From positions 2,748,001-2,812,000 of the forward strand of contig NC_080569.1 in the NCBI RefSeq assembly GCF_030253575.1: 64,000 nt of DNA, read 5' to 3'. Numbering within the stretch: the stretch's first letter is position 1; each line of letters starts with the position of its first letter. A program made the translations under genes and the position numbers. The notes beneath the pieces were generated by a model. That model searched no databases, had not been told where the DNA came from, and worked only from the letters and a program-made list of their open reading frames with translations. This document shows positions 1,658 through 63,299 of this stretch, piece by piece. The stretch comes from Rhododendron vialii (taxonomy: Eukaryota > Streptophyta > Magnoliopsida > Ericales > Ericaceae).

Positions 1658-4600
1658 TCCCCAATGCTTACCCCGTGGATTTATTTGAGCACAATTGGGC
1701 CGTTGATCGGCTTTTACGCCTCGGAATTTCTCGGTATTTCCAAACGGAGATCAAAGAATGTATGGACTACGTCTACTGGTATAATCAAATTTGGCTTAGA
1801 TATATAGTTGAAACGAACTTTATTATTGTAAACTTATAAGTAGAAATTCAGATATTGGACTGAGGAAGGAATTTCTGCGGGGAGAAATTCCAACGTTCAC
1901 GACATAGATGATACAGCCATGGGTTTGAGGCTTTTACGATTACACGGCCACCACGTTTCTGCTGGTAAGTTTAGTGCTTTTGAGTTCTCCAAGAGTACAA
2001 CTTTCCTTTTTCAATTCTTTAAATAGTTTTTGCTCTCAACAAGTTTTATGATTGAAGTTTTGTGTTAAAAAAATAATCCGCACGATCTCACCTGTCTGTT
2101 TTGGCAATCAATGATTCATAACACGAGATTGACCTCCGTAAAATCTTATTCACGGAACTCCATGAGTAAGTTTTTCTCCTTGTAGTAACATAGAAAGGTA
2201 AAACAATTGACATATTCTAAAATTTCCTCCGAAACAAAAACAAGAAATTCCTTTATTGGAGAAGGGGACAAGTTAAAAGATTTTGGGTTCAGATCTTCTC
2301 CATACCCAACATCTCCCACCACATCTCTATACCTGCAAAAATGTGTATGTACCTCGAGAAGAAACTTTTGTGCAATCCTGCGATTGCAGATGCACAGGAA
2401 CATAGATGTGGAGGGTGCTCTATTTGACCTCCCAACACCTCCGTGCCCTTGAGTTTTCATTGCGTATCTTTTTGCCCCCACAATCATAATCAAAATTGTT
2501 TATCTTATAAAATCTGCAAAAATCATGTATGCAAAAATAATTTTAATCAGCTATCGGTAGGCATGTGAACAAGCAACATTTTTTTTTTCCCATTAAAATG
2601 GACGAAAATGTATTATACTAAATCGCGCCACATATTGCAAAGAATGAGATGCAATTTATTCACATGCCTATTGAATTTTAAATTAATTTTGGCTGACACA
2701 TTTTTTTGTTTTGCATCAATGAGATGAACAGTTGGGTTTAGGTTGTTGAAAAGTTAAATTTCCCAAATGAAAATCTTTGTGTCAACAGAATAACTTCTTT
2801 ACGGAGGCCCATTCGTGCGTGTCTAAAATATTTTTGGATGATCCAGATTGAAAATTATTTTTAGCCGGTCAAAATTGAAAAGCAATCTCAATTAATTGCG
2901 CGAATGGACAGGCGAGATTGTGCAGAGCTGTGAAGAAACTTCCGTGAATAAGTTTCTCTCTTGTGTCAACTAGAGACACAAGTTTTTTTTTTTTATACTC
3001 GAAGAGACCCAAGTGATGAGTACATTTGGTTTTGCATTTTCTCGGCAGATGTGTTTCGACATTTTGAGAAGGATGGGGAATTCTTCTGCTATTCAGGGCA
3101 GTCAACTCAGCCAATAACTGGAATGTATAACCTGAATAGGGCTTGTCAACTTCTATTTCCAGGAGAGAAAATTCTCGAGGATGCCAAAAGATTCTCATTC
3201 AAATTCTTGAGAGAGAAACAAGCCAGCAACGAGCTCCTAGATAAATGGATAATAGCCAAGGACTTACCTGGTGAGGTATGGCTGTGATTTTTCAGTTCGT
3301 GATGTGCCAATAGATTGTTTCCAATCCTATCTAATATACATACACGACCTGTTTTCTAGTAGCAAGAGACAATATGATGGGAATGAGCTGTTCTTTGGGT
3401 GAAGAGAGTCGTGTTCAAGGGTTTTCGGTTATGAGATCCAACATAATTTCTTGTACCGCTTTTATCTCTTGTGGACGTATGCAGGATTTGCCTAATTAAT
3501 CACGCGAATTCTTGAGTGCACCTCTTGAGTTTTTACATTTTCCTCTGTTCGTTGTGATTAGGAATTACTTTTGTTTTTTGAATTTCGGCTTTGGTTTGCT
3601 AGCTTCTGCAAAATCCTAACATTATAATGGAATAATAGGTGGGATATGCTCTTGACACGCCATGGTATGCCAGTCTGCCTCGGGTTGAGACAAGGTTCTA
3701 CTTGGACCAATATGGTGGTGCAGATGATGTCTGGATTGGCAAGACCTTGTACAGGTAACTTCTGCTATTGATTTTCGTCGCGCTTCCTGACTGGAGTACA
3801 TAGTACATACGTTAGATTATGGCCGATGAAACGCATGAATGGCTTGTAGAATGAGTTGATCGATGCTGATTTCTCATTTTCCAATAGGATGCATACCATT
3901 AACAACAACAAACTTCTCGAGCTTGCAAGATTGGATTATAAAAACTGCCAAGCCCTGCATCTGCTGGAATGGGACACCATTCAACGGTATAATATTATCC
4001 CTTGTTTTCACAATTTCTGTTTCGTACGTATGTGGAAGATTCTGGTGACCCAAGTTTTTAATGATGTTTTCTACAGATGGTACATAGAATGCCACCTTGG
4101 AGAGGTTGGAACGTGCAAAAAGAACTTACTTTTTGCATATTATTTGGCCACAGCGAGTATATTTGAACCAGAAAAGTCAAAAAAGCGACTAGCATGGACT
4201 AAAACGAAGATCTTCATGGAAGCAATTGTATCTTATTTTGAAAATGAGGGAAGCTCTGCTGAGCACAGGAGAGCATTTCTTCGTGAATTCAGAAAGATTG
4301 GAAGTAATGAAGACCGTGCGAATAATATGTGGTAATTAAGTATATACGAAATCATCTCTGCATTGCTAAAAAGTAGTAGGAGACTATGTAATAGTAGGTA
4401 CGTACTTACGGATACTATGTAGATTGGATCGAACATGGTACTGAGTCATTCAAGAACATGAAATGTTAAAAACATTGGCGCATGTGGATATAAGCTAATC
4501 TTTAGTTTTGTACTTTACAGGCACAAGGAAACAATACTGGGACAAAGATTTGTCCCGATACTGCTAAGAACGATAAATCAACTCTTGGTTGATGCACAAC

Positions 4601-7536: not shown

Positions 7537-10500
7537 ATGTCTTCTTCTACTGATCAATCCTTCAACCTCATCCTCCAGTTGCGATCGTCATTGACTGCGG
7601 CACAACAACCCTTAAATACTAATTTCTCGGGTACATTCTTTTTTCCTCCCTACATTAATTTTGTGCTTTTAAGCTCCGTTGGTTTGATCTATTTTACGAT
7701 CACTTCCGGTGTTTGGTTATGCAAAAGCAAGCCTTGGAAATGAACTTTCTTGGAAAATCATTTACAGTCATCTATATGTTGTTAGAAAAGTACTCCAATT
7801 GACAAGAAACTTGTTGTCGTTTATGTGTCTAAAGCGATAACATGCTTTTATATAGGTTATTATATACAAGATTTGGTGATTAAGAAACATAAGCAACTTA
7901 ATTAGAAAAATATGCATAATAATTAAGGAAATATAGACTAACTAGGAAACATGAATAATAGGGCCTAGTCTAAATAGAAAACACAATAATAAAACCTACA
8001 GAAAACATGCTAACATAATAGTCCCTAATATTATTTTAACATCTCCCTCAAACTCAAGTATTTTTACCAACTTTAATTTGAAAAAGAAACCAGTAGCCAG
8101 AAGAAACTAGGAAAAATTGAAAAACGAAGAAGCTAAAAGCCAATAAACTAATTAAGAGTGAGATGAGAGAGCGCATGGGCAATATTGAATTTTAGGGGCG
8201 AAATCCGGATGCGTGAGCCAAGTATTTGAGATAAAAGAAGTTGGTTTTTTTATACATGTGTTCGGGCCAGCTTACGGATAATTTTTTTTTTGCTAAGCCT
8301 TACGTATACTTCGGCTAATCCCGTGAGACCATAAATCTATCGTCCACGAGCGGGGCCCCCCTTTAAAGCCGGAGAAAATGCTCTATATTGACAGGCCCAA
8401 AAAAAATTGATAGCATCTGATAGGTTTTGAACCTGAAACATTAGGAGGGAACAAACCCCTAAGTCCCTCCCCCGATTTAAGAATGGTAAAGATACACGTA
8501 CAGTAAAGGCTGTACAGAAGCCGTGCACAGATCACTTTTGTGCCAATCTTGGGTCCCACAAAGATGATCGGAGCCGCTTATGTTGTTTAAAATACTTTGT
8601 TTAGGGTTCCTATAAAAAATCACCTAAATCCGATATCGGGAAGGACGTTTACAAATCATCCAACTTTGCTTCTAATTATACAAAATATTACTTCCTCCGT
8701 TCCTGATTGTTAATAGGCCATTAATTAATATATTTTATTTTGAAATGTTGCACAATGTTTGTTCCTCTTGGAAAGTCAACAATCTAAAACTGGCAATTCT
8801 CAAACTATCCTTGTAAATATCCATCAATGTAACATATCATTCATCAATTTTTTTGGGTAAATCTATCATTCATCAATTATCAATTGATTCCCGTTCAAAT
8901 ATAAAACAAGTTCTTCATGATCTGATTATATATAGTAGAAGTGTTTTTACCTTTTGCTATTTGAATTAATGAAGCATCTGGGGCAATTTTATACCTATGA
9001 GGTGAAATGTTTCGGGAATTATAAAAAGAGAAATGCTACGTGCAAAAAAAATGGACAAATAATTGACCCTTAAAGTGTACTTGAACGATTCAGATGCACT
9101 GCACAGTAAATCTGAGCCGTTCAAATACACTTTAAGGGTCAATTCTTTGTCTATTTTCTTTGTCTCTAGCACTCCTCTTATAAAAATGTCAATGGGGTCA
9201 AATTTAGTAATTATTTTACAATCCATTAGCAATTGTTATTAGGGATAATGGAAAATTGAGTGGGGGTAAAGTGGCCCGGCCTCATTTGACCCATACTGCC
9301 TTCGACCCTATTACATTAAATATACATCAGATTGTAAAGAAGGCACGTGAACTTATTTATTTTACTAATTTTTCATTCTTTTCAGAAGAGAGATAAGGTA
9401 AAGGTGACAATTGATACGATCTACTCTGCTAAAGTTTCTCTTGTGATCAATAATAAGTGTTTTTTATGCATTCTACGATATTCACGCATGTGCAGAGTAC
9501 GGAGATGTCTTCAGACATGACATAGAAGGAGAAAAAGCTCTTGAGGTAGTTTCAACACACCACCCCCCCCTCTCCTCTCTTTTTTTCCCCTTAATTTTTG
9601 AAAAAATGACGGCTAATGACGTGTTTTGATAATTAATATTCGCTAAGGATATTTTTAGTATTAACAAATATTTTTAACATATTCTTAGCGGGTATTAATT
9701 ATTAAAATACGTCATGCACTGTTATTTTTCCTTAATTTTTTTGTGATGACAATATATGCAGAGTTTGACTTTGGGGCCCTGAATTTTATAGGCTCACATA
9801 TAACTGAGGCCTACTTAAAAAAGTTACAGTAAGTTATAACTGAGGCCTACATAAAAGTTAAGTTAAAAAAATTTTAAGGCCCAATTAAAAGTAGACCCGA
9901 GTGGAAAGACCCAAACATGAGATAATTATGAGTGTAAATTCTTTTCATCACTAGTGAAACCCCACCATTTTCACCATCGCACTTAGGCTTCACCAGACCT
10001 TTTTTTGTTGTAATTTGAACCGTTCATTTTTAGGATCTGTAGAGAGTAGTATATCCGCAGAGTTCTAGGAACCAAAAAAATCGATAAATAAGCATGTCTT
10101 TTGATTTTCTGACAGTGTAGATTGAATATAAATTGGCTATGTTGTCTATTGAAAGTGTTGTGGTGGCAAAACTTGATTTTACAATTTTAAGTAGCACATT
10201 TGCAGCTAAAAATGCGAGATGAGTTATATTTAGATTATAGTATTCGGAATTGTTAATGGTACTTAATTTTGGCTATTTATGATCTTTAATTGGTGCATGT
10301 ATATATTGACTTCTTTATGAAGCCTTTTTTATTTCTAACTATTTTCAACTACGCAAACCATATAGAGATTTGAAGGGCCAATTAGAAAGTTCGCTTTAGA
10401 CTCCACAAATATGAGAGTCCGCTCTGGATATATGTATTACGGTATTAAAATACGGTACTTACAGTACTTGATGTGATTCCAAAGGTGAATTCAATGGGCA

Positions 10501-13500
10501 AAATAAAGGAACATGTGAATTCTATACAATCGATGTTGGGGTCTATGAACGATGGAGGTCGTGTGAGCATATCAGCTTATGATACCGCATGGGTAGCTCT
10601 AGTTGAAGATCTCCACGGAAATGGTGGTCCTCAGTTCCCCAAATGCCTTGAATGGATTTCTAATAATCAGCTCCCCGATGGTTCATGGGGTGACGCTTTG
10701 ATATTCAAAGCCAGTGATCGATTAATCAGCACTTTAGCTTGTGTAATTGCACTAAAATCATGGAACATTCATCCGGACAAAACCAAAAAAGGTAAGTAAT
10801 TCAACAGTGCTAAAATACTATATCCTATGTGACCTTTTTCCCTATACTGCACGCGTTCAATTCATGAACTGTTTATCAAATTTGTGACTAACTGGTGTGT
10901 ATGTTTTCGGTCGAAAAAAGGAATGGAATTCGTCAAAGAAAACATACACAAGCTTGAAGATGAGAATGAGGAGAACATGCTGAGTGGCTTTGAAGTAGCA
11001 TTCCCTTCGCTTATAGAAATCGGTCGCAAGTTAGATATCAAAGTCCCAGTTGATCATGTAGTATTACAGGAGATCTATGCCAGGAGAAATCTGAAGCTCG
11101 CAAGGTACGTAGTTTTCGATAGAAGTAATTAATTCTTCCCTAGACATATATTGTTGGCAGTTTTCGAAAGCCCAATTGCAAGCGTATCAATCTATTCGCA
11201 AAGAATTTCACGGAGACCTCATCATCCATTGACTTTTTTCTGGCTCAATCCCTCGCTTGATCTTAAAAGGGGACAAACAGAGACCCCCTCATCTATAAAC
11301 ATAAGCCGATTAGAACCCTTAGCTAAAAGACCATTAAGACATGCTTATTGTTCTTTACTTACAGACATGCTCCTCCACCCCTCTCTCTCCTCATTCCCAT
11401 TTAGTTCAAAAACAGGAAGAAAAATTGAACCTAATTATACAAGGCAACCAATTCAAATTACATTATACCAGGCAGAGCCGTTGCAAAGACAGCGGGGTTG
11501 GTGGTGTTTTTAATGATGAAGATTTGGATACTTGTAAGAAGAGAGTATATGGAATGTCTATTACAGTAATTTTGACCATTTTGGTGATCCTGTTTTGGAA
11601 TACACACAAGTAATATGTGATTATTTGGTTTGTGCAATATATATATATATATATATAGGATACCAAAGGGCATAATGCACAGGGTGCCCACATCACTGCT
11701 CTATAGCCTGGAAGGAATGCAAGACCAAGACCTGGATTGGGAAAAGCTACTTAAGTTTCAGTTTCCAGATGGATCATTCTGCACTTCTCCTTCTTCCACC
11801 GCGTTTGCATTAATGCAGACTAAAGATGAAAAATGCTTGAGATATCTTAGCACAACCGTTGAAACATTCGTCGACGGGGGAGGTAATTAAGTGCTTATAA
11901 CACTTTGCAGTACTACAGGCGATGTGGGCTCACCCGATCGAGCTCGATTAACTTGAATCGACATTGCTAATTAACAACATGATCGAATGATCTTTACCGG
12001 AAAAAAAAAAAACATGATCGAATGATCAACCCAGGACCACCACCTTCACAACACAACACACACACACCCCATACCAGCGAATCTGGTACACAAGGAGCAC
12101 ACATTGCTTTTTATGTCCTTTTATGTGGGTGTTTAACATGCACGTGACATGTTGTCCAAAATGTTGACAAGTATTGTGTAATAAACTTGCTTTAATTTTA
12201 GATTTTACAGCTCTATAGTTATCTAGCCTGTTTTTTTTTAATATTCAGTTCCCAATGTTTACCCCGTGGACATACTTGAGCTCCTTTGGGCTGTTGATAG
12301 GCTCCGACGCCTTGGAATTTCCCGGTATTTCCAGTCAGAGGTTACAGAATGTTTGGATTACGTCTACAGGTATATTTAAAATCAACTAATATATATATAT
12401 ATATATATATATAGTTAAATTACAAAGGATCTTTAGTGCAATGATTTTTTCCATAACTAAGTTAAAATTCAGATATTGGACTGAGCAAGGAGTTTTTTCA
12501 GCAAGCAATTCTACCATTCATGACATAGACGACACAGCCATGGGTTTTAGGCTTTTACGACTACACGGCTACCAAGTTTCTGCTGGTAAGTTTAGTGCTT
12601 GGTTTGGTTTCTCAAAAGTCCTTTTTTCTCAATTTTTTTTAAAAAAAATCTTTAATTAACTTTTCAAGTTTCTCTAGAAAAGGAAGGTTAACTAGTTACA
12701 ACAGAAGATCCAAAATAAGGGAATTTGTAGAGAACTCAAACCAGAGAGGAGTACTTAAGTTATAACTATTGGATTTGCATCTCTCTTTCTTTTCTCGATC
12801 AGCAGATGTGTTTCAGCATTTTGAGAAGGATGGGGAGTTCTTCTGCCTTGCTGGGCAGTCAACTGAGGGAGTAACTCCAATGTATAACCTGTATAGGGCT
12901 TCTCAGATTCTATTTCCAGAAGAAAATATCCTCGAAGATGCCAAGAAATTCACATCCAAGTTCTTGAGAGAGAAACAAGCCAGCAACAAGCTCCTAGATA
13001 AATGGGTAATAGCCAAGGACTTACCCGGTGAGGTACGAATGTGATTTTGATACTTACAGTACTCTGTTTATCAACTACTAGTGTTGTACCCGTTCGATAC
13101 ACAAGGCCTAAAGAAACACCAATGTGATTTTCAACGCTAGTTAAGGGAAAAGGAAATGTGTACAAAAATTTCTTGATCTTATATCAGGTGGGATATGCTC
13201 TGGACGTGCCATGGTATGCCAGCCTACCTCGGGTGGAGACGAGGTTCTACTTGGACCAATATGGTGGTGCAGCTGATGTCTGGATTGGCAAGACCTTGTA
13301 CAGGTAACTTTTGTTATTTTTGTTCACTTGACGCTTGATACGTAGCAGAGATTTTTTCTTTTCCTTTTTTCAATAACAAACTCTTGAAGGCCAAAACCGT
13401 CGTCCACTAACAAGAAGAACAATTAAATCGGAACAAAACATAGTGCCAATTAACGAATTACTAGCCCAAAAGAGGGCATGAAATTTGAAATCATGCTCTG

Positions 13501-15587
13501 AATTGTCATGATTGAATTATGTTTTGTTTCCACATTCTCCAAATAGTATGTTTAGTTGTTTGTACAGAAAACAAATATCACCGAAAGCCTAAGAAATAAT
13601 CGCTGCCAGAATAGTTTGTTCGTTGTCAACCTAAAAATCGCAACTATATATCACTCTGGGGGCTAGTTTGAATTGCTAAATGCAGTTTATAGTATTAACC
13701 ATTTTGCAGTGATTCTGAATTCGATTTTTTGTATCATTCGCCGCCCCAGGCTGCTTAATGTTAGTAGTAACAACTACTTGGAGCTTGCCAAATTAGACTA
13801 CAAGAACTGCCAAGGATTGCATTTGAGAGAATGGAACACCATTCACAAGTATGATATTATACCTAGCTTGCATTCAAAAGTTTGCTCCATTGTTGTAAAT
13901 TTTCTTAAGTTGAGATTTAAGTTACCAATTACTTTTGCCAATCAAAAAAAAAAGTTACCAATTACTTTCTATATAGATGGTACACAGAATGCAACCTTGA
14001 ACAGTTTGGAATGAGCAAAAAAGACATGCTCTTCGGATATTATTTGGCTACAGCAAGTATCTATGAACCAGAAAGGGCAAAAGAGCGACTTGCATGGGCT
14101 CAAACCAGAATATTGATGGAAGCGGTTGTATCTTCTTTTGAAAACGAAGGAACTTGGGAGAGGAGTGCGTTCCTTTGTGAATTTAGAAAGCGTCGTAGTG
14201 ACTACGTGACTAGTAGGTGGTAAGTACACAATCCATTGAATTGCTAGCAGCCTTTTTCACAATATGTACCACTTGAGTTGAACATGGTGAACCATTCAAG
14301 ATAACAAGAGGTTACATGAACGATGGTAGTATAATATTTACTCCATACTTTGTAGGGATGGAAAAATAACGAGGGGACAGGGACAGGGACTTGTCGCGGT
14401 ATTGCTTGGAACCCTCAATCGACTCTTGTCCGATGCGCATGTGGTACAGGATAGGGAAATATTCCACCACCACTTACATCAAACTGTAAGTTACTATATA
14501 GTACTTGTTCTTGAACATGGATCGATCATGTCTTCAATCTCGTCCCATGCTCCTCTTTTGTAGTATTTTTCACCAAAATAAAGGTATAGAACCAACATGA
14601 AAACAACTAGGGCACAAGATTTCATGCCATATCATCGATAACATGCTCTCTCTTTTTTTCTATGTTGTCTTGTGGGTGAAGTGGGAGACGTGGATAATGA
14701 CGTGGCAAGAAGATGGTGACATGCGAGAGGGACAAGCAGAACTTTTAGTCCGTACAATAAATTTGTGTGCCAATTTTGGGGCGCCTGAGAAACTTCCACA
14801 ACTCTCCCATCCTCGGTACAAGCATCTCAACGACATTGCCAATGGAGTTTGTTGCCAACTCCTGCAGTTTCAACACCGGCAACCATCACGCAACAAGGTA
14901 AAATAACCAAGTAATCAAATGAATGGACTCGTTAGTTCTCTGTATCGTTATACGTACATATCATGTATGGCTTAACAAAAACAAGTTAAATCATGCACAC
15001 GAGAAGCGAAGCTTCTTGATTCTCGATGAACATCGGAGAAAAATTTTATTCAATAACTTGTTCATTCACATGGATACATGATTGAGAGCATCAAATACAC
15101 TGTCTTGGATGATTACAATCCTCTGTTTATATGTAAGCTCAAAATTCTAAAACCAAATCAAAATATCAAAATAAAGTTTAATTCTATATATTCTGATTTT
15201 TTTTTTTTTGAACCGCAATAGAAAATTAAGTTAAAAAGTTCTAATTAAGACTACACAAAGAAAACTAGGCACATATAAAATCGCCGAAATATAATACTTA
15301 TTTTATCTTTGGTTGCGTATATTAGCTTCGCTTATTTAGTTGTGATTACTCTACTTTTGTAACGTGAGCAGATTCAGGGCAAGGACAAGTGCAACACAAC
15401 CCTCCGTATCGAATCAGACATGCAAGAACTAGTGCAGTTAGTAGTTTGTGCTTCATCAGATGACATCGACTCTGATATCAAGCAAACTTTTCTTGCAGTT
15501 GCAAAGTCTTACTATTATGCTGCCTATTTTGTTCCTGCAACTATTGATTTTCACATTGCCAAAGTACTACTTGAAAGAATAGTGTGA
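7537..15587 (+). CDS. Class II diterpene synthase (CPS-like), copy 2, complete; unusual active site
   Basis: Exons: 7537-7630, 9496-9545, 10485-10791, 10921-11104, 11659-11882, 12249-12369, 12473-12585, 12806-13032, 13188-13303, 13750-13848, 13977-14219, 14356-14485, 14682-14897, 15372-15587. They sum to 2340 nt, one frame of 779 aa plus stop, close to the roughly 800 aa usual for the family. Order: Ser/Thr-rich plastid transit peptide (exon 1), the [10 protein letters not shown] linker (50-nt exon 2), [10 protein letters not shown], the QLPDGSWGD repeat, the acidic EDENEENM patch, then DIDDTAM, the DxDD general acid (near 12520). There is no DDxxD, so it only makes a bicyclic diphosphate. 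Known family residues: the ent-CPS His of LHS (AtCPS 263) is Tyr here (LLYSLEGM, codon 11702-11704), the partner Asn of PNV is kept, and AtCPS His331 is Leu ([10 protein letters not shown]). The acceptor at 10484 is pyrimidine-poor. An extra exon in the 1.9-kb first intron cannot be excluded. Confidence 0.9.
9028..9177. mobile_element. Mutator-like MITE with 9-bp target duplication
   Basis: This 150-bp element lies in intron 1 of diterpene synthase copy 2. Ends GAGAAATGCTA and (reverse complement) GAGGAGTGCTA are extended by long inverted arms around AATTGACCCTTAAAGTG. It is flanked on both sides by TTATAAAAA (9019-9027 and 9178-9186). A 9-bp duplication is the hallmark of Mutator-type insertion. 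Confidence 0.75.
11639..11656. repeat. (TA)n tract at a splice acceptor
   Basis: About nine TA units run directly into the AG acceptor of the exon at 11659 in diterpene synthase copy 2, replacing the usual pyrimidine tract. Another (TA)n lies at about 12390-12412 in a later intron. Confidence 0.8.
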
Positions 15588-27100: not shown

Positions 27101-27625
27101 TTCCCAAAATATGGTAAGTTGTTAATTTTGGCAAGAACAATAACTTTTTCCTTAAATTTTGTGTAAATTTAAATTGAAATGGCGAGTCTAGCAAAAAATT
27201 GAAGGAAAATGCAAACTAAACTGTTTTGGATAATAATACTACTAAAAATGTTCATACATTCAAAAAAAGTGCATGAAAAATTCTAAAATCAGCTCAATGG
27301 ATTGATAATAATAAATATATGAATGTGTATTAAATAGTATAAAAATTTCACATAAATACGTTTTTTTTTTTGTCTTATAGTGTACTTATCATTAGTGCAA
27401 TGAATTGACAATAACAAGACCGAAAGTGCATGACCATCCGTCAAAGCATATTGATATTGTGAAGGTTGCATTAAAATTCTAACCCTTTTTTTTTTTTCTC
27501 GTGTGAATGGGCTCAAATCAGCCCGGACCGAAAAATTGAAAACGGGAGCGGGGTCTATAAATCGAAGTTTTTATTACCATGTGACAAAATCCATGTCCGC
27601 GGCGGATTCTCGGCTTTAGCTCGGC
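27101..27625. promoter_or_regulatory. WDR5 upstream region with TATA box
   Basis: TATAAAT at 27556-27562 lies about 65 bp before the WDR5 ATG, after a short GC-rich patch. The rest is AT-rich DNA with T runs (27361-27371, 27487-27499). The solo LTR ends about 500 bp upstream of the start codon, so it lies within promoter distance. Confidence 0.5.
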
Positions 27626-30210
<2,585 letters not shown>

Positions 30211-56394: not shown

Positions 56395-57620
56395 TCAACC
56401 TCCTCCTCCCTCTCTCTTTCTCAGCAATCGCTTCGCTTCGGTTGCCATTGACTTGTCGGTTTCACGGCGCGTAGATACAGCTCTCCTGCATGTTTACCCA
56501 GGTACATTGATTTAGGTTTTATTCTACGTGTGACGGCGGTAGGATTCCCAATCATATTCTGATTCGGTTTCTGCCTTTTGTACGGTCTCTCCCCCAAATT
56601 CCCTTTTTTTTTTTTTGGCTCTGTTTTTGTTTATATCATTAGATTTTAGTGATTCCCTAGTTTTTCGAATCAAGAATTTGATTTTGTGTATGATGTCAGT
56701 GAGGCTATGAAGCTTGACTGTCGTGTAACATTCTTATTTTGGTCTGTCAGTGTTTTTGTTAGAACCTGACTGAGGGTTTTGAAATTAGGGTTTTTCCGAG
56801 CTATTGGAGGAGTCTAGGGAGGGCTTGAGATCTGCTGCTATTCATTCCAAGTCTGAGAACGGTGTGATGGGCTTATAAAACTCTGAACGTGATTCGGTTG
56901 CCTGTCTCGGTAATCGTTTTGCTTCGGACGCCATTTAGTGGGTTCTACAACGTATAGATACCGCTGCCGTGCACGTATACCCAGGTACATTGGTTTAGGT
57001 TTTACTGTGATGGTGGTTTCGCACTCCCCTCTTCTAGTTTCCTTAGAATCAAGTCCTGTCCAGTTTGGGCCTTTGTGGCTTTTCATTTTGTAGAAATCGT
57101 CAAGTATATTAACCATGCAAAAAATCAACAAATCAACTTGATCAAGCATCGATGCCTATATGAACAAAACAGATTTGTGAAAGAAAAACAGACGGAGAAA
57201 AATTGAGTACTTGAACTGCGAATTTTACTTGGATAAATCATCATCTTTTACGTGGGTAATGTACTCTAGGAGCTTTCCAAATGAATGGTTCTGATCATTG
57301 TTGTGGGGCCAAGGAGGCCCACGAAAGCCCAAATTGGACTGGACTGAACCTAAAGGAAGCTGGAGGGTAGCTTGGTAGTGATTTTGTCTGCTTTTGTACA
57401 GTCGGTCTTGCCATTGTTTCCTCATGCATTTTCTTTGTATCATTTGATTTTCAGATACTCCTGAGCTTGTTTGTTGGCTTTGTGTATAATGTGAGTCTCT
57501 GAAGCTCAATTGTCCTCACAAACTTATTTTGGTTGGAATTTCCCTTGCTTATCTTTGAAGCTGACCGAGGGTTTAGAAATTAGGTTTGTGTGTAAGATGA
57601 GAGAGGGCTTGAGATCCAAT
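56395..57620 (+). repeat. Tandemly duplicated leader region of the PHD/GNAT gene
   Basis: 56425-56540 (CGCTTCGCTTCGG..., ACCCAGGTACATTG) matches 56908-57015. 56690-56845 (TTTGTGTATGATGTCAGTG..., GAGGGCTTGAGATC) matches 57478-57620. Each unit has a leader exon ending in a CCCAG/GTACATTG donor (56501 and 56984), an intron, and the start of the coding exon. Only the second keeps an ATG at the start site; the first reads CTAGGGAGGGCTTGAG. The second unit's intron is about 300 bp longer and contains the dispersed repeat at 57235-57345. Confidence 0.75.
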
Positions 57621-60600
57621 GTTATGGCCGCAAAGCAAGAAAATGTCATTGTGTCTGCAAATGGTAATGTCGATTCAGGCACAAGCAAGGGTGATGAAAT
57701 CACCAGTGGTAGTGAGGGTGACAAAACAAAGAAAGAGCTAGAGTTAGAACCCGTGGATCTATCGCAGCTGGGTCATCTCCCTTGCCCCCGGTGCAACTCG
57801 ATGGACACCAAGTTCCTCTTGTACAGCAACAGCAAACATTCTCCGCCCCGGCACTGCTGCCGTTCCTGCCGGCACTCGTGGACTCAGGGTGGGACCCTGT
57901 ATATTAAAGATTCTTCTATTGGCAGAAACTTTGAGCGTAGGTTTGAACATATGGAGCGAGGAGAAGATACCAATATCTCTTCTGGCGATGCTAATGCACC
58001 GGGGCTTCAAATTGGGAGGGAAAGAAGAAGGTTGGAGAGTTCTGATGAGAAGGACAAATATTTAGAACAGGGCAAGAAGAGGGGACAGCAGCGCCCAACT
58101 CATGGCCAGCGAGAGCCAGATCATGTCCCATGCCTGCTGTGCAACTCCACCAACACAAAGTTCTTGGCCTACAACAACAACAAAGTCTCTCAGCCGCGGT
58201 ACCTCTGCAATTCCTGCTGTAAGACCTGGACTCGTGGTGGGACCATCTACAAAAGGAGAAGGTTGGACGATTCTGAGAGGGAGAAAGCTATCGCAATTTC
58301 AGGTCTAAAAAAAGGTAGTGAGATCAACAATACTGATGGTTATGAGATGGTAGCGCATTTTGTTGCAACTTTGACTGATCCAGAATATGTCAAAGATTCA
58401 TCGTGTGAGATGAAGAGCAATGGGTCTGAGAATGATAAAGTTAATTCAGGTGTAGAAAAAGGCGATGAAGCCAAAAACACTGATGATAACGAGATGGTAG
58501 CACAGGTTGAGGGGAAACAGGAAGAGAAGAAACATAGCAGTCAAGATGCTGATAGTAGTGTGCGTGGTGACAACCATAGAGGTAATCCCGATGCTAATGC
58601 TGTAACATCTGGGCTTGAAGTTGGGATAGGGCGGCAAGGGATGGTAAGAATAGGGATAGGGAATTCTGACGATAATGAGAAAGATTTAGAAACGCGGAAG
58701 AACCGGCGACGGGGGCGGCAGAGCCCGCCTCTTGGAGCACACCCGCAAGAGCCGGATCATCCCCCATGCCTGCGGTGCAACTCCACGAACACCAAGTTCT
58801 TGTACTACAACAACAACAATCACTCTCAGCCTCGGTACATGTGCTATTCCTGCAGTAAGTCCTGGACCCACGGTGGGACCATCAGAGGGAGCAGGGGGAA
58901 GAAGACAGGAACGGTGGAGAGTTCTGATAAGGAGAAAGGTATAGTAGTACGTTCCGGTCCGGAAAAAGGTGCTGATACCAACAACACTGATGGTAATGAG
59001 ATGGTAGGGAAGAGAAATAGGTCTGAGGAATCTGACCAAACCAAGCACAATGAGAAAGCTGATGGTAAGGCCTATGTTGAACACCATACAGGTAAGCCTA
59101 AAATTGGGAGAGGACAAAAGGGGAGGAAAAGGAAAAGGGTGGAGAGTTCTGAACGCAATGGGGATGATGACACACTGATAAAGAAGGTCAAGGAGGTATC
59201 TTGTGGTGGTAAGGCTCAGGTTGTTGGTAGGATTTTGAGGTCAAGGACACTGGCAACAAATGGCGTTGAGAAGACGGTTGGTGTTGGACTTGCTGAAGGT
59301 GTTCTGGGGGTTACAGGGAGGAAAGAAGCTGATGTTTCAGCCAAGAATAGCACTGAAATAGAAAACTATCACAGTGTCCAATTGATTGACAGGCAAAAGA
59401 AGAAGATAAAAGGAAAAGTGCAGGGGAAAAGCGGGCCGCTGAAGGCGAAGCAAAAGTTGGTGGGGTTCAGGGAAAATGGCGATATACTGAAGTCCAAAAG
59501 GGTCTCTAGGGGTTCTAAGTTTCTGGACAATGGAAAGCACAATAGGTTAGCCAGTAAGTTACGTGATTCGGGCCGGAAATTCATTGTGAAACAGTCAAAA
59601 GGGAGCAAGCAAAAGGAAGGGGGAGTTTGCAAAAGAAGTACTGAAAAGCAGTTTTTGAGGGATCGAATAATGGCTATGCTTACGAGTGCAGGCTGGACAA
59701 TTGAGCGTAGGCCCAGGTCCGGCAGAGAGGAGGGCAGAGAGTACTTCGACGCTGTATATGTTAGTCCTGAAGGACGTGGTTTGTGGTCAGTCACCTTGGC
59801 TTATAAAGTTCTTAGAGAACAAGTTGAAAGTGGCGAGGCTGATAGTAGGGCCCTTGCTGCATTTACTCTGATACCACAAGAGGAATTAAGCAAATTATTT
59901 AGGACAACAAAGAAGAAAATGGGACTACAAAAGGGATTGAAGGGAGAAAGAGAGGGTGCAAATAAGAAACACAAAGGAGTTACTCAAAAGAAGAAGTTTA
60001 AAAAGAACAATGCTAAGAGAGGAACAAAACAGAAATCGTCAGACAGTGAACAAGACGTTCCAGCTAATACATCTCAGAGGGGAATGCAAAGATCACATCG
60101 CAGGGAGAGACAAAATGGAAAGAGATATGCTCTGGTGGGTCGTCACTCGAAGAAGGGGTTGGATCCAGACAGTGAAGGCTTTGTACTATATGATGGGAAG
60201 CGCAGTCTTCTTTCGTGGATGATTGACTTGGGAACTGTTCCTCTTAGTGGAAAGGTTAAATATATGAACCATAGAAGGACTCAAGTATTGCTTGAGGGCA
60301 GGATAACCAGAGATGGCATTCATTGTGACTGCTGCAATGAAACCTTTGCTCTCGCGGAATTTGAGTCTCATGCTGGAAGTAAAGTCACACAACCATTTGA
60401 GAATATTTATCTCGAGTCAGGAAGTTCCCTTTTCCAGTGTCTAGTAGACTCGTGGAGCAAACATGATGGGTCTGAATGCGTTCGAGTCCATTCTGTTGAC
60501 GTTAATGGCGATGATCCAAATGATGATACATGCAACAAATGTGGGGATGGTGGGGACTTAATATGTTGTGATGGCTGTCCTTCAACTTTTCATCAAAGTT

Positions 60601-63299
60601 GCTTAAATATACAGGTATTGATGTATTGCCTCATTTTATACGGTTTTATAGTAATGTAAATTATAGGCAGTAATGCAGTATCACTTTGATGCATACTTCG
60701 CATCTTCATTTAGGGCTTATCTAAAAGTTGCGTCTGTGTGTTCTATGCAGTAGCATTCTTAAGCTTATTCATTTGTAGGCAGTCCAATGTGAATAATCCA
60801 AAGCTTTTAGGCGGCAGGCTAAAAAAATATCTAGGGAATGTTTGTCCATGTTACGGAGACAGGTTCTAAATAATTGTTTTCGGCATCCAAATTAAATTAT
60901 TTGTCTAAACTTGTGTTTAGCAGTTGGGTTTCTTTTATGTAATGTTTTTCAAGTGCTTGTTCAGCAAAGTAATGGTTCCGCTGCTGTGCAGATAGAGGAA
61001 TTTTCATTTCGATTAGCATGTATCAAAAATTTTTAGTGCAAGGGTTTTCTATTGGCCAATGCGATAATCATTCTTTCCTTTGCATGGCAGAAGTTTCCTT
61101 CCGGTGACTGGCACTGTGTGTATTGTTCTTGCAAGTTTTGTGGCATGGTTGGGAGTACATGTCAGAGTGGTGATGCAACTGGTTCTGCATTGCTAACGTG
61201 CCGGTTGTGCGAGGAAAAATGTATGTACTACACTTATCACAGTGCTATGATTTTTTGGGATTTTTTCAACTCTGTATTTCACTATTTGATTCCAGGATAT
61301 AGCTAGTTTGTCTTAAATATCAACTATGTTGCCTTTTGTAGACCACCTACTCTGCATTCAGGCAAACGATGCTGTGCATGTTGATTCTGATCGTCCGTCT
61401 TTTTGTGGAGAGAAATGTCAAGAGGTAACTATTGATGAAGTTCTACAGCTTCAGTAATCAGTACTTTTGCTTGATGGAATAAGTAGTAGTTTTAGTTGCT
61501 AATCATTATTTTCGTTTGGGACACTAATTCTGAACTCTTTAATGCTTTACTCCTGTCTCAACATCGAAGTCATTATATGATAATGTTGATGTTTTCTTTT
61601 AGCGGGGATTGTAGTACAGTAAAACTTAGGTGGACTGGTTAAGTTTTAGGAAGGAAAATTGTCAAATTCTCTTGTCCTGATTTACTTCTTATTATGACGG
61701 TAGTGTACAATATTTTAACCTGCATAACAATACACAAAGGGTTTATAACAGTTGGTGACTACTGTGGATATGGCATCACGAAATTTGGTTGTTTGTTCAA
61801 GATTTATTAGATTGATGATTGGTCTTATCTGTTCCCCAAACTGCCTCTTATTTTGTTCCATGTATGTCTATAAAGGAGCTAAATTAATTCCAAAGGAATC
61901 ATTGTTTTGTGTTTCCTCTATCTTGACATTATTACTTTATAGATCTTCTTGGTGCAATTTGTTTATGTAATCGAATTTGGGTGCAACTGTGCAAGTAATC
62001 CAACTTGAAAGTCATCTGTGCTGAAGGAGCACTAATAAGGGTTGCTTGATGTATAACCAAAATAAGTTATGCATCATGCAAATACTTTTAAAATTATTGA
62101 TTACAGCTTAGCCATTGCTACCCTTTTCAAGCATTAACATGCTACTGGACCTCAGTTGAGTTTACATGAGCAGTTTTGGCACCATATGCTAACCACATTA
62201 TTTATCTGGAACTGTGGCATATATTCCTTTTTATATTGCGTTATTTTTCTTGTTCCCTTTTCTTGTTCTGTTGAAAAATTGGTTTTCAATTTGTGTTTCC
62301 TTTTCCTTCTCTTAGGTATTCAATCCCCAGTAATTGCACTTATGCTCTATGACTCCAGTTCTGTATCCGGTGTGTTCTCTATTTACTGGTACTTAATGAA
62401 CATAATACTTGCTCAACAGGTCTTTGAGCGACTTCAGGTGCTTCTTGGGGTCAAAAATCGACTGGAAGAAGGATATTCATGGACTCTTTGTCAACGTTTT
62501 GATGTCAGCCCACAAACATCTGTTCCTTCAAAAGTTGAATGCAACTCCAAGTTAGCTGTTGCATTGTCTATTTTGGACGAGTGTTTTTTGCCAATTGTTG
62601 ACCCGAGAAGTGGAATCAACATGATTCGTAATGTTGTCTATAGTTGTGGGTAAGCACTTTTGACTATGTTTTGGTTGAAAGAGACTGGTTAGTATTGCAG
62701 ATGAACAAATATCAGTTACTAGAGAGTTCCGCATGAGGCACACATGGCTTGCATGTGGGTGGAACTCTATAACTAGACTTATAAAGACAGACACTTGTGA
62801 TTTGTGAATGTTACTAATTTGGTGTTATATTGGAATATATCCATTATTTACCTTGAAATAGTTGTAGTCTGTTGCAAGAGTTTGATTGTCATTGGGAAGG
62901 TTTCTTGTTGCAACTGAATATTGTGCTAACAAAGGAGTTCCAAAACCTGTATCAGTTACCGGTTTATTCCCTTTTTCAAGATGTGGAATTATCTGAAGTT
63001 ATGTACTATCGTAGTGCACCTTAAATAATGGAAATAGACGCGATTAGCATTGTGTATTGTAGCATTGTTTGGACAATATTGGCACGGTCCAATATTGAAA
63101 AGACTTAAAACAGAGGGGAACGCCAAGTGGCCGTCCTGTTTTCTATATTCATACGGATATTAAATAACTTAATACTGATACTATTCTTGTCTGTTTATTG
63201 AATTGGTTCCAGGTCCAATTTTACTCGGCTGAACTACGCTGGTTTCTTCACTGCTATTCTAGAGAGGGGTGATGAAATTATCTCAGCGGCATCCATAAG
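57597..63299 (+). CDS. Triple-Dof, PHD finger, IDM1-like acetyltransferase fusion (3' end beyond window)
   Basis: Visible exons: 57597-60614, 61091-61220, 61342-61424, 62420-62649, 63213-63299, all in phase (about 1180 aa so far). The ATG at 57597 opens [13 protein letters not shown], similar to the EG(V/L)RS starts of IDM1-type proteins. Order: three Dof fingers with exact C-x2-C-x21-C-x2-C spacing (Cys starting at residues 63, 179 and 391; cores [14 protein letters not shown] and GGTIY); a Lys/Arg-rich linker; an [10 protein letters not shown]...[11 protein letters not shown] module (about 682-760); a tify/Jas-like block (about 862-925, [20 protein letters not shown]); a PHD finger (from 979, [17 protein letters not shown]); then the IDM1 signature [10 protein letters not shown] and [17 protein letters not shown], the start of the GNAT fold. 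IDM1 in Arabidopsis acetylates H3 and recruits DNA demethylation against silencing. The Dof part is not in the IDM1 I know. The acetyl-CoA-binding exons are not seen before 64000. Confidence 0.85.

Follow-up and report, generated by a model that had tools for sequence, protein, structure and literature searches.

The described protein closest in layout to the gene reported here is AcDOF28 of kiwifruit (Actinidia chinensis), a predicted protein of 1818 aa in which a zf-DOF domain is listed together with TDBD, PHD_SF and ArgA domains (PMC11354610). AcDOF28 and AcDOF36 both belong to subfamily d and carry two copies of motif 1 each; the sentence of that paper on extra domains names AcDOF28 twice, which leaves the share of AcDOF36 ambiguous. 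The excerpted passages of PMC11354610 hold no comment on the Dof-PHD combination. Within the open-licence literature searched, it was the sole paper to contain the terms Dof, TDBD and PHD together, and no functional study of a Dof-PHD-GNAT fusion turned up there. Multi-Dof genes are on record too: a tree that covers 82 species and 2124 homologues includes 16 genes with at least two DOF domains, of which Actinidia chinensis has three, Rhododendron delavayi one, Aquilegia coerulea five and two mosses together seven; artefacts were not excluded (PMC10842470). These genes resemble the present one in having more than one Dof per protein; the words PHD and fusion are absent from the main text of that paper.

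IDM1/ROS4 and the IDM1-like PHD-GNAT proteins have DUF7028, TDBD, PHD and the start of IDM1_C in common with the present gene. To our knowledge, the Arabidopsis members of this family are without Dof fingers. IDM1/ROS4 has been named among the proteins that bind methylated DNA, and a complex has been described in which it is joined by two alpha-crystallin-domain proteins and by MBD7, a methyl-DNA-binding protein (PMC5462541). For the fingers, the nearest known structure is the zinc ribbon of CDF1 (PDB 8xuf), which was the best PDB sequence match of exon 1 (9e-13) by way of finger 1; the string LPCPRCNSM-x-TKF is common to both.

Results

The gene lies on the + strand of a stretch of 64,000 nt (the window). 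A frame running from 57495 to 60659 is free of stops over 1054 codons, whereas the runner-up stop-to-stop frame within the window has 233 codons; when the region was shuffled 500 times by a first-order Markov model and read in all six frames, no open frame exceeded 286 codons. A chance ORF is thereby ruled out. The first coding exon of this Dof-IDM1-like gene, with its ATG at 57597 and its donor at 60614, comprises 1006 codons. The sequence-only reading had claimed that three Dof-type fingers and an IDM1-family part stand in one uninterrupted exon of this length, and both the frame and the Pfam matches bear this out (Table 1). Because the three fingers and the start of the PHD finger share one open exon, they were not brought together by joining separate gene models, and a merger of two neighbouring genes by annotation is ruled out for the Dof-to-PHD part. 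For the present gene at least, this bears on the doubt about artefacts expressed for multi-Dof genes in PMC10842470.

Table 1. Features of the Dof-IDM1-like gene in window coordinates
Feature	Position	Strand	Remarks
Exon 1: N-terminus, three Dof fingers, DUF7028, TDBD, first half of PHD	57597..60614	+	donor CAG/gtattg at end
Dof finger 1 (residues 61-104)	57777..57908	+	Pfam alone 1.7e-18, 66.9 bits; GC3 0.77
Linker repeats around fingers, families D2 and D3	58008..59152	+	spacings 147, 507, 624, 258, 225, all multiples of 3
Dof finger 2 (residues 177-220)	58125..58256	+	Pfam alone 1.6e-16, 60.6 bits; GC3 0.77
Dof finger 3 (residues 389-432)	58761..58892	+	Pfam alone 7.4e-21, 74.5 bits; GC3 0.82
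Donor-like site CAG/GTAAGC	59089..59097	+	cut at 59092
DUF7028 ('AGWTI' module)	59607..59822	+	Pfam 1e-9
TDBD, Tify-domain-binding domain	60297..60449	+	Pfam 3.7e-21
First half of PHD finger	60531..60611	+	23.3 bits, just under 24-bit cut-off
Exon 2 (predicted): PHD second half and start of second PHD-like cluster	61091..61220	+	AG/GT borders
Exon 3 (predicted): second PHD-like cluster	61342..61424	+	AG/GT borders; PHD_4 0.001, below cut-off
Exon 4 (predicted): spacer, then IDM1_C start	62420..62649	+	AG/GT borders
Exon 5 (predicted): with end of exon 4, IDM1_C model positions 1-50 of 140	63213..63299	+	9e-16

The IDM1-family part of the gene contains DUF7028, TDBD and PHD in the same order as in the IDM1-like PHD/GNAT family, which is defined by these three domains in that order. 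The AGWTI module noted earlier is DUF7028 and lies in the same frame; the block that had been called tify-like is present as well, although it is a Tify-domain-binding domain in nature. The PHD finger had been placed wholly in exon 1. Its first part is indeed there, and the remainder lies in exon 2, so that the end of exon 1 joined to exon 2 gives a complete PHD finger (Pfam 4.6e-11). When exon 1 and the four predicted exons are joined, a single frame is kept for 1182 residues up to 63299. The gene would thus extend beyond its earlier-noted end at 60614 to at least 63299, after which it leaves the window. A search of the protein for Dof, PHD and GNAT domains, as had been proposed, recovered the first two in full and, of the GNAT-type domain, the portion that falls within the window, namely IDM1_C positions 1-50 of 140 (58.7 bits against a cut-off of 33). 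No continuation of IDM1_C was seen by eye in three frames of the last 700 bases of the window, and the catalytic GNAT part would therefore lie outside it. We also rejected the possibility of a pseudogene, since the five exons are without a stop and have AG/GT borders, a statement that applies only to the part inside the window.

We conclude that the fusion is real and that the gene belongs to the IDM1-like PHD/GNAT family; it is unusual and, as far as the window reaches, intact. The sequence-only reading knew of no described protein of such layout, a claim that has to be given up, as the Dof-TDBD-PHD-GNAT layout is already on record in the kiwifruit listing. AcDOF28, whose ArgA domain is of the GNAT type, shares Dof, TDBD and PHD with the present gene, of whose GNAT-type domain the window holds the start only. 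Compared by description only, the two differ in that AcDOF28 has two motif copies in 1818 residues, whereas the present gene has three fingers and 1182 residues up to 63299 (PMC11354610). Most likely, the gene is a further member of the Dof-TDBD-PHD-ArgA type listed in kiwifruit.

One could envision that alternative splicing separates the two parts, for example by giving a Dof-only isoform that ends after 59092. The donor-like site at this position, inside the long exon and shortly after the finger array, outscores each of the five inferred donors in a rough hand-set matrix. Its score is equalled by 0.12% of the 1711 GT sites used as background, and a hypothetical splice from 59092 to exon 2 would meet a stop after 503 residues. 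Judged by its sequence, the site makes alternative products of the gene possible. Nevertheless, the donor matrix was set by hand, the frame through 59092 is open and is followed by a linker repeat copy (59115-59152), and AcDOF28 of kiwifruit has been reported to contain both parts (PMC11354610). We think it extremely unlikely that the Dof and IDM1-like parts are made as separate products.

All three fingers have the exact C-x2-C-x21-C-x2-C spacing that had been recognized by the sequence-only reading, starting at residues 63, 179 and 391. Another signature that it had assigned to them, SQPRY(L/M)C, is confined to fingers 2 and 3, finger 1 having SPPRHCC instead. Pfam Zn_ribbon_Dof matched the exon 1 protein in three stretches (4.6e-51), and each finger taken singly passed the gathering score of 26.6 bits. 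Across the fingers, 12 of 12 Cys and three of three Trp residues are kept, and all five key columns (the four Cys and the Trp, picked from knowledge of Dof domains) are among the 22 invariant columns of 42 (hypergeometric 0.031). The net charge of fingers 1, 2 and 3 is +6, +7 and +5 over 44 residues. The structure predicted for finger 3, of modest confidence (mean pLDDT 66.4) and with fingers 1 and 2 entering only as alignment rows, had a single PDB match under E 0.001, the Dof domain of CDF1 with DNA (8xuf_C; 6.3e-4, TM 0.59/0.69).

Matches to other families were also seen, namely a PHROGs transposase (4.1e-5, with no stretch passing alone), NCBIfam PaaD (0.012, far short of the cut-off) and Pfam PaaD and SNAPC3 (both below cut-off); we rejected the transposase, PaaD and SNAPC3 assignments and read these matches as the common zinc-ribbon pattern. 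Scans of contigs, which were seeded with short peptides of the Dof-IDM1-like protein and would miss distant relatives, gave 15 stretches with the protein pattern and 92 with the finger-alignment pattern in the viral set, and 117 and 36, respectively, in the prokaryote genome set; tblastn confirmed none of them.

The sequence-only reading had further proposed a sequence-specific array, in which the three fingers would jointly read clustered AAAG sites and thus bring the acetyltransferase to chosen loci. This hypothesis is favored by the score of each finger above the Pfam Dof cut-off and by the fold of finger 3, which matches DNA-bound CDF1. The contact residues can be compared with those of CDF2, in which DNA binding is strongly reduced by K166A and by mutation of R170 and is lost altogether with Y171A or W172A (PMC9477738). 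The W172 position (CDF2 numbering) is Trp in all three fingers, which again speaks for the array; K166, R170 and Y171 are kept in none. In fingers 1, 2 and 3, respectively, K166 is replaced by R, N and Y, R170 by H, K and K, and Y171, the residue whose change to Ala abolishes CDF2 binding, by S, T and S. Of the nine changes, three are conservative, namely R for K166 in finger 1 and K for R170 in both finger 2 and finger 3; these three are in keeping with an array, in which several fingers could offset weak single ones. N and Y at the K166 position of fingers 2 and 3 argue against it, as does the stretch after GGT, where unrelated, partly basic residues stand in place of the CDF1 arm MRSVPIGAG, so that no finger has an arm like RSVPIGAG. 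In fingers 1, 2 and 3, respectively, 24, 22 and 24 of the 41 core residues are identical to CDF1; the C-terminal arm and the contact residues tested in CDF2 differ.

Because K166, R170 and Y171 are replaced and a CDF1-like arm is absent, standard AAAG recognition by the three fingers appears doubtful, although DNA binding of the fingers may survive given that some replacements are conservative. It seems more likely that the fingers bind DNA in a changed or relaxed manner, or that they bind proteins. The proposal of a sequence-specific AAAG array is weakened by these comparisons and does not stand as stated; we consider it rather unlikely that the fingers work in this way. Another scenario is that the fingers are protein-interaction modules only, which recruit transcription factors or chromatin partners and have no role on DNA. 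Dof domains bind other proteins besides DNA, and such a role would agree with the retention of the zinc ligands while the DNA-contact positions change. The fingers are still basic, however, and a function confined to protein interaction is in our opinion quite unlikely.

The three fingers are not equally related to one another. In an ungapped comparison over 142 nt, the identity to finger 2 is 85% for finger 3 and 67% for finger 1. The linker repeats go with fingers 2 and 3, and there are also copies without a finger (D2 at 58428-58509 and D3 at 59115-59152). Between the finger-2 and finger-3 units, seven of seven alignment gaps are multiples of 3, at least one of them being forced by the codon-aligned unit ends. 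In our view, fingers 2 and 3 go back to a unit of finger and linker that was duplicated within the gene. The three fingers also have residues in common that set them apart from CDF1, such as the Leu after TKF, and these make a common origin of finger 1 with fingers 2 and 3 probable, even though finger 1 is as near to CDF1 as finger 3 is.

The fingers also stand out in base composition. Third-position GC is 0.79 in the fingers versus 0.41 elsewhere, in sharp islands that coincide with the three fingers; the value expected from codon usage outside them is 0.38, and among 1005 circular shifts a single one gave a value as high as that observed. These islands would fit a GC-rich Dof segment that was captured by an AT-richer gene, but gene conversion or constraint at synonymous sites would give the same picture. 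The finger has a lower pS than the linkers (0.23 versus 0.40), a difference short of significance (370 of 5000 permutations).

Another possibility is that the fingers are a mere passenger, a captured Dof segment that was duplicated in a tolerant, low-complexity N-terminal region and is now drifting. The dN/dS ratios of the three pairs of fingers (0.48, 0.72 and 0.69) are in line with this. For pN minus pS, the 95% bootstrap interval of fingers 1 and 2 has its end at -0.00, and those of the two remaining pairs include zero. Nor can finger and linker be separated by pN, which is lower in the finger without reaching significance (296 of 5000 permutations). Selection on the fingers is thus weakly shown by these comparisons. 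On the other hand, a drifting passenger is difficult to reconcile with the retention of every Cys and Trp and with a frame that is open throughout, and multi-Dof genes are found in Actinidia and Rhododendron as well (PMC10842470), an argument that applies if these are the same genes. We regard the passenger hypothesis as very unlikely.

The DUF7028 region was modelled alone (mean pLDDT 71.8). In a Foldseek search of the PDB, methyl-CpG-binding domains made up 11 of the best 15 rows, at E 0.4 or worse and with none below 0.001. A sequence search of the PDB with the same stretch returned nothing up to E 1, and Pfam found no MBD in it. DUF7028 may be a methyl-CpG-binding-like module, which we treat as a lead only.

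Discussion

The explanation that we prefer, and to which we give about an even chance, is that the gene encodes an IDM1-like chromatin regulator carrying Dof-derived ribbons with altered DNA- or protein-binding. The C-terminal half would most likely do the chromatin work: the PHD finger would read the histone H3 tail, the TDBD would dock partners, and the GNAT domain, the catalytic part of which would lie outside the window, would acetylate histones. DUF7028 may add a methyl-CpG-binding-like module. Since the ribbons retain the zinc site and a positive charge, while their set of customary DNA contacts is incomplete, they would most likely serve as a tether, which holds the protein either on partner proteins or on DNA, in the latter case with a specificity that is relaxed or changed.

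A bolder version of this proposal is that the protein is an acetyltransferase with two DNA readers of its own, a rewired three-ribbon Dof array and an MBD-like DUF7028, and that it selects loci by both sequence and methylation without separate recruiting factors, as the innovation of one plant lineage. We hold this to be distinctly improbable. The presence of the ribbons as built-in Dof-family fingers would let one ask whether the fusion of reader and enzyme replaces recruiting partners such as MBD7.

Some other features of the window were observed. Just upstream of the gene, the leader contains a partial tandem duplication (56416-56521 and 56902-57004, 76% identity) and a second matching pair (56751-56792 and 57546-57587, 81%). 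Further upstream, between 55800 and 56050, degenerate repeats around 'aaatgagc' and 'gctcgg' were seen by eye, possibly from a mobile element. Neither Rfam families at the gathering score nor tRNAs were found in the window. Terpene synthase fragments are present at 2952-3284 (PF01397, 1.1e-11) and 3850-4332 (PF03936, 1.8e-5, just under the cut-off), and the frames 10449-10796 and 13667-14011, without a Pfam match, resemble such fragments by eye; we presume that the regions 2952-4332 and 10449-14011 are possibly two copies of a copalyl-diphosphate-synthase-like gene. Finally, a frame at 27623-28318 encodes a WDR5-like beta-propeller (PF25175, 5.8e-85).
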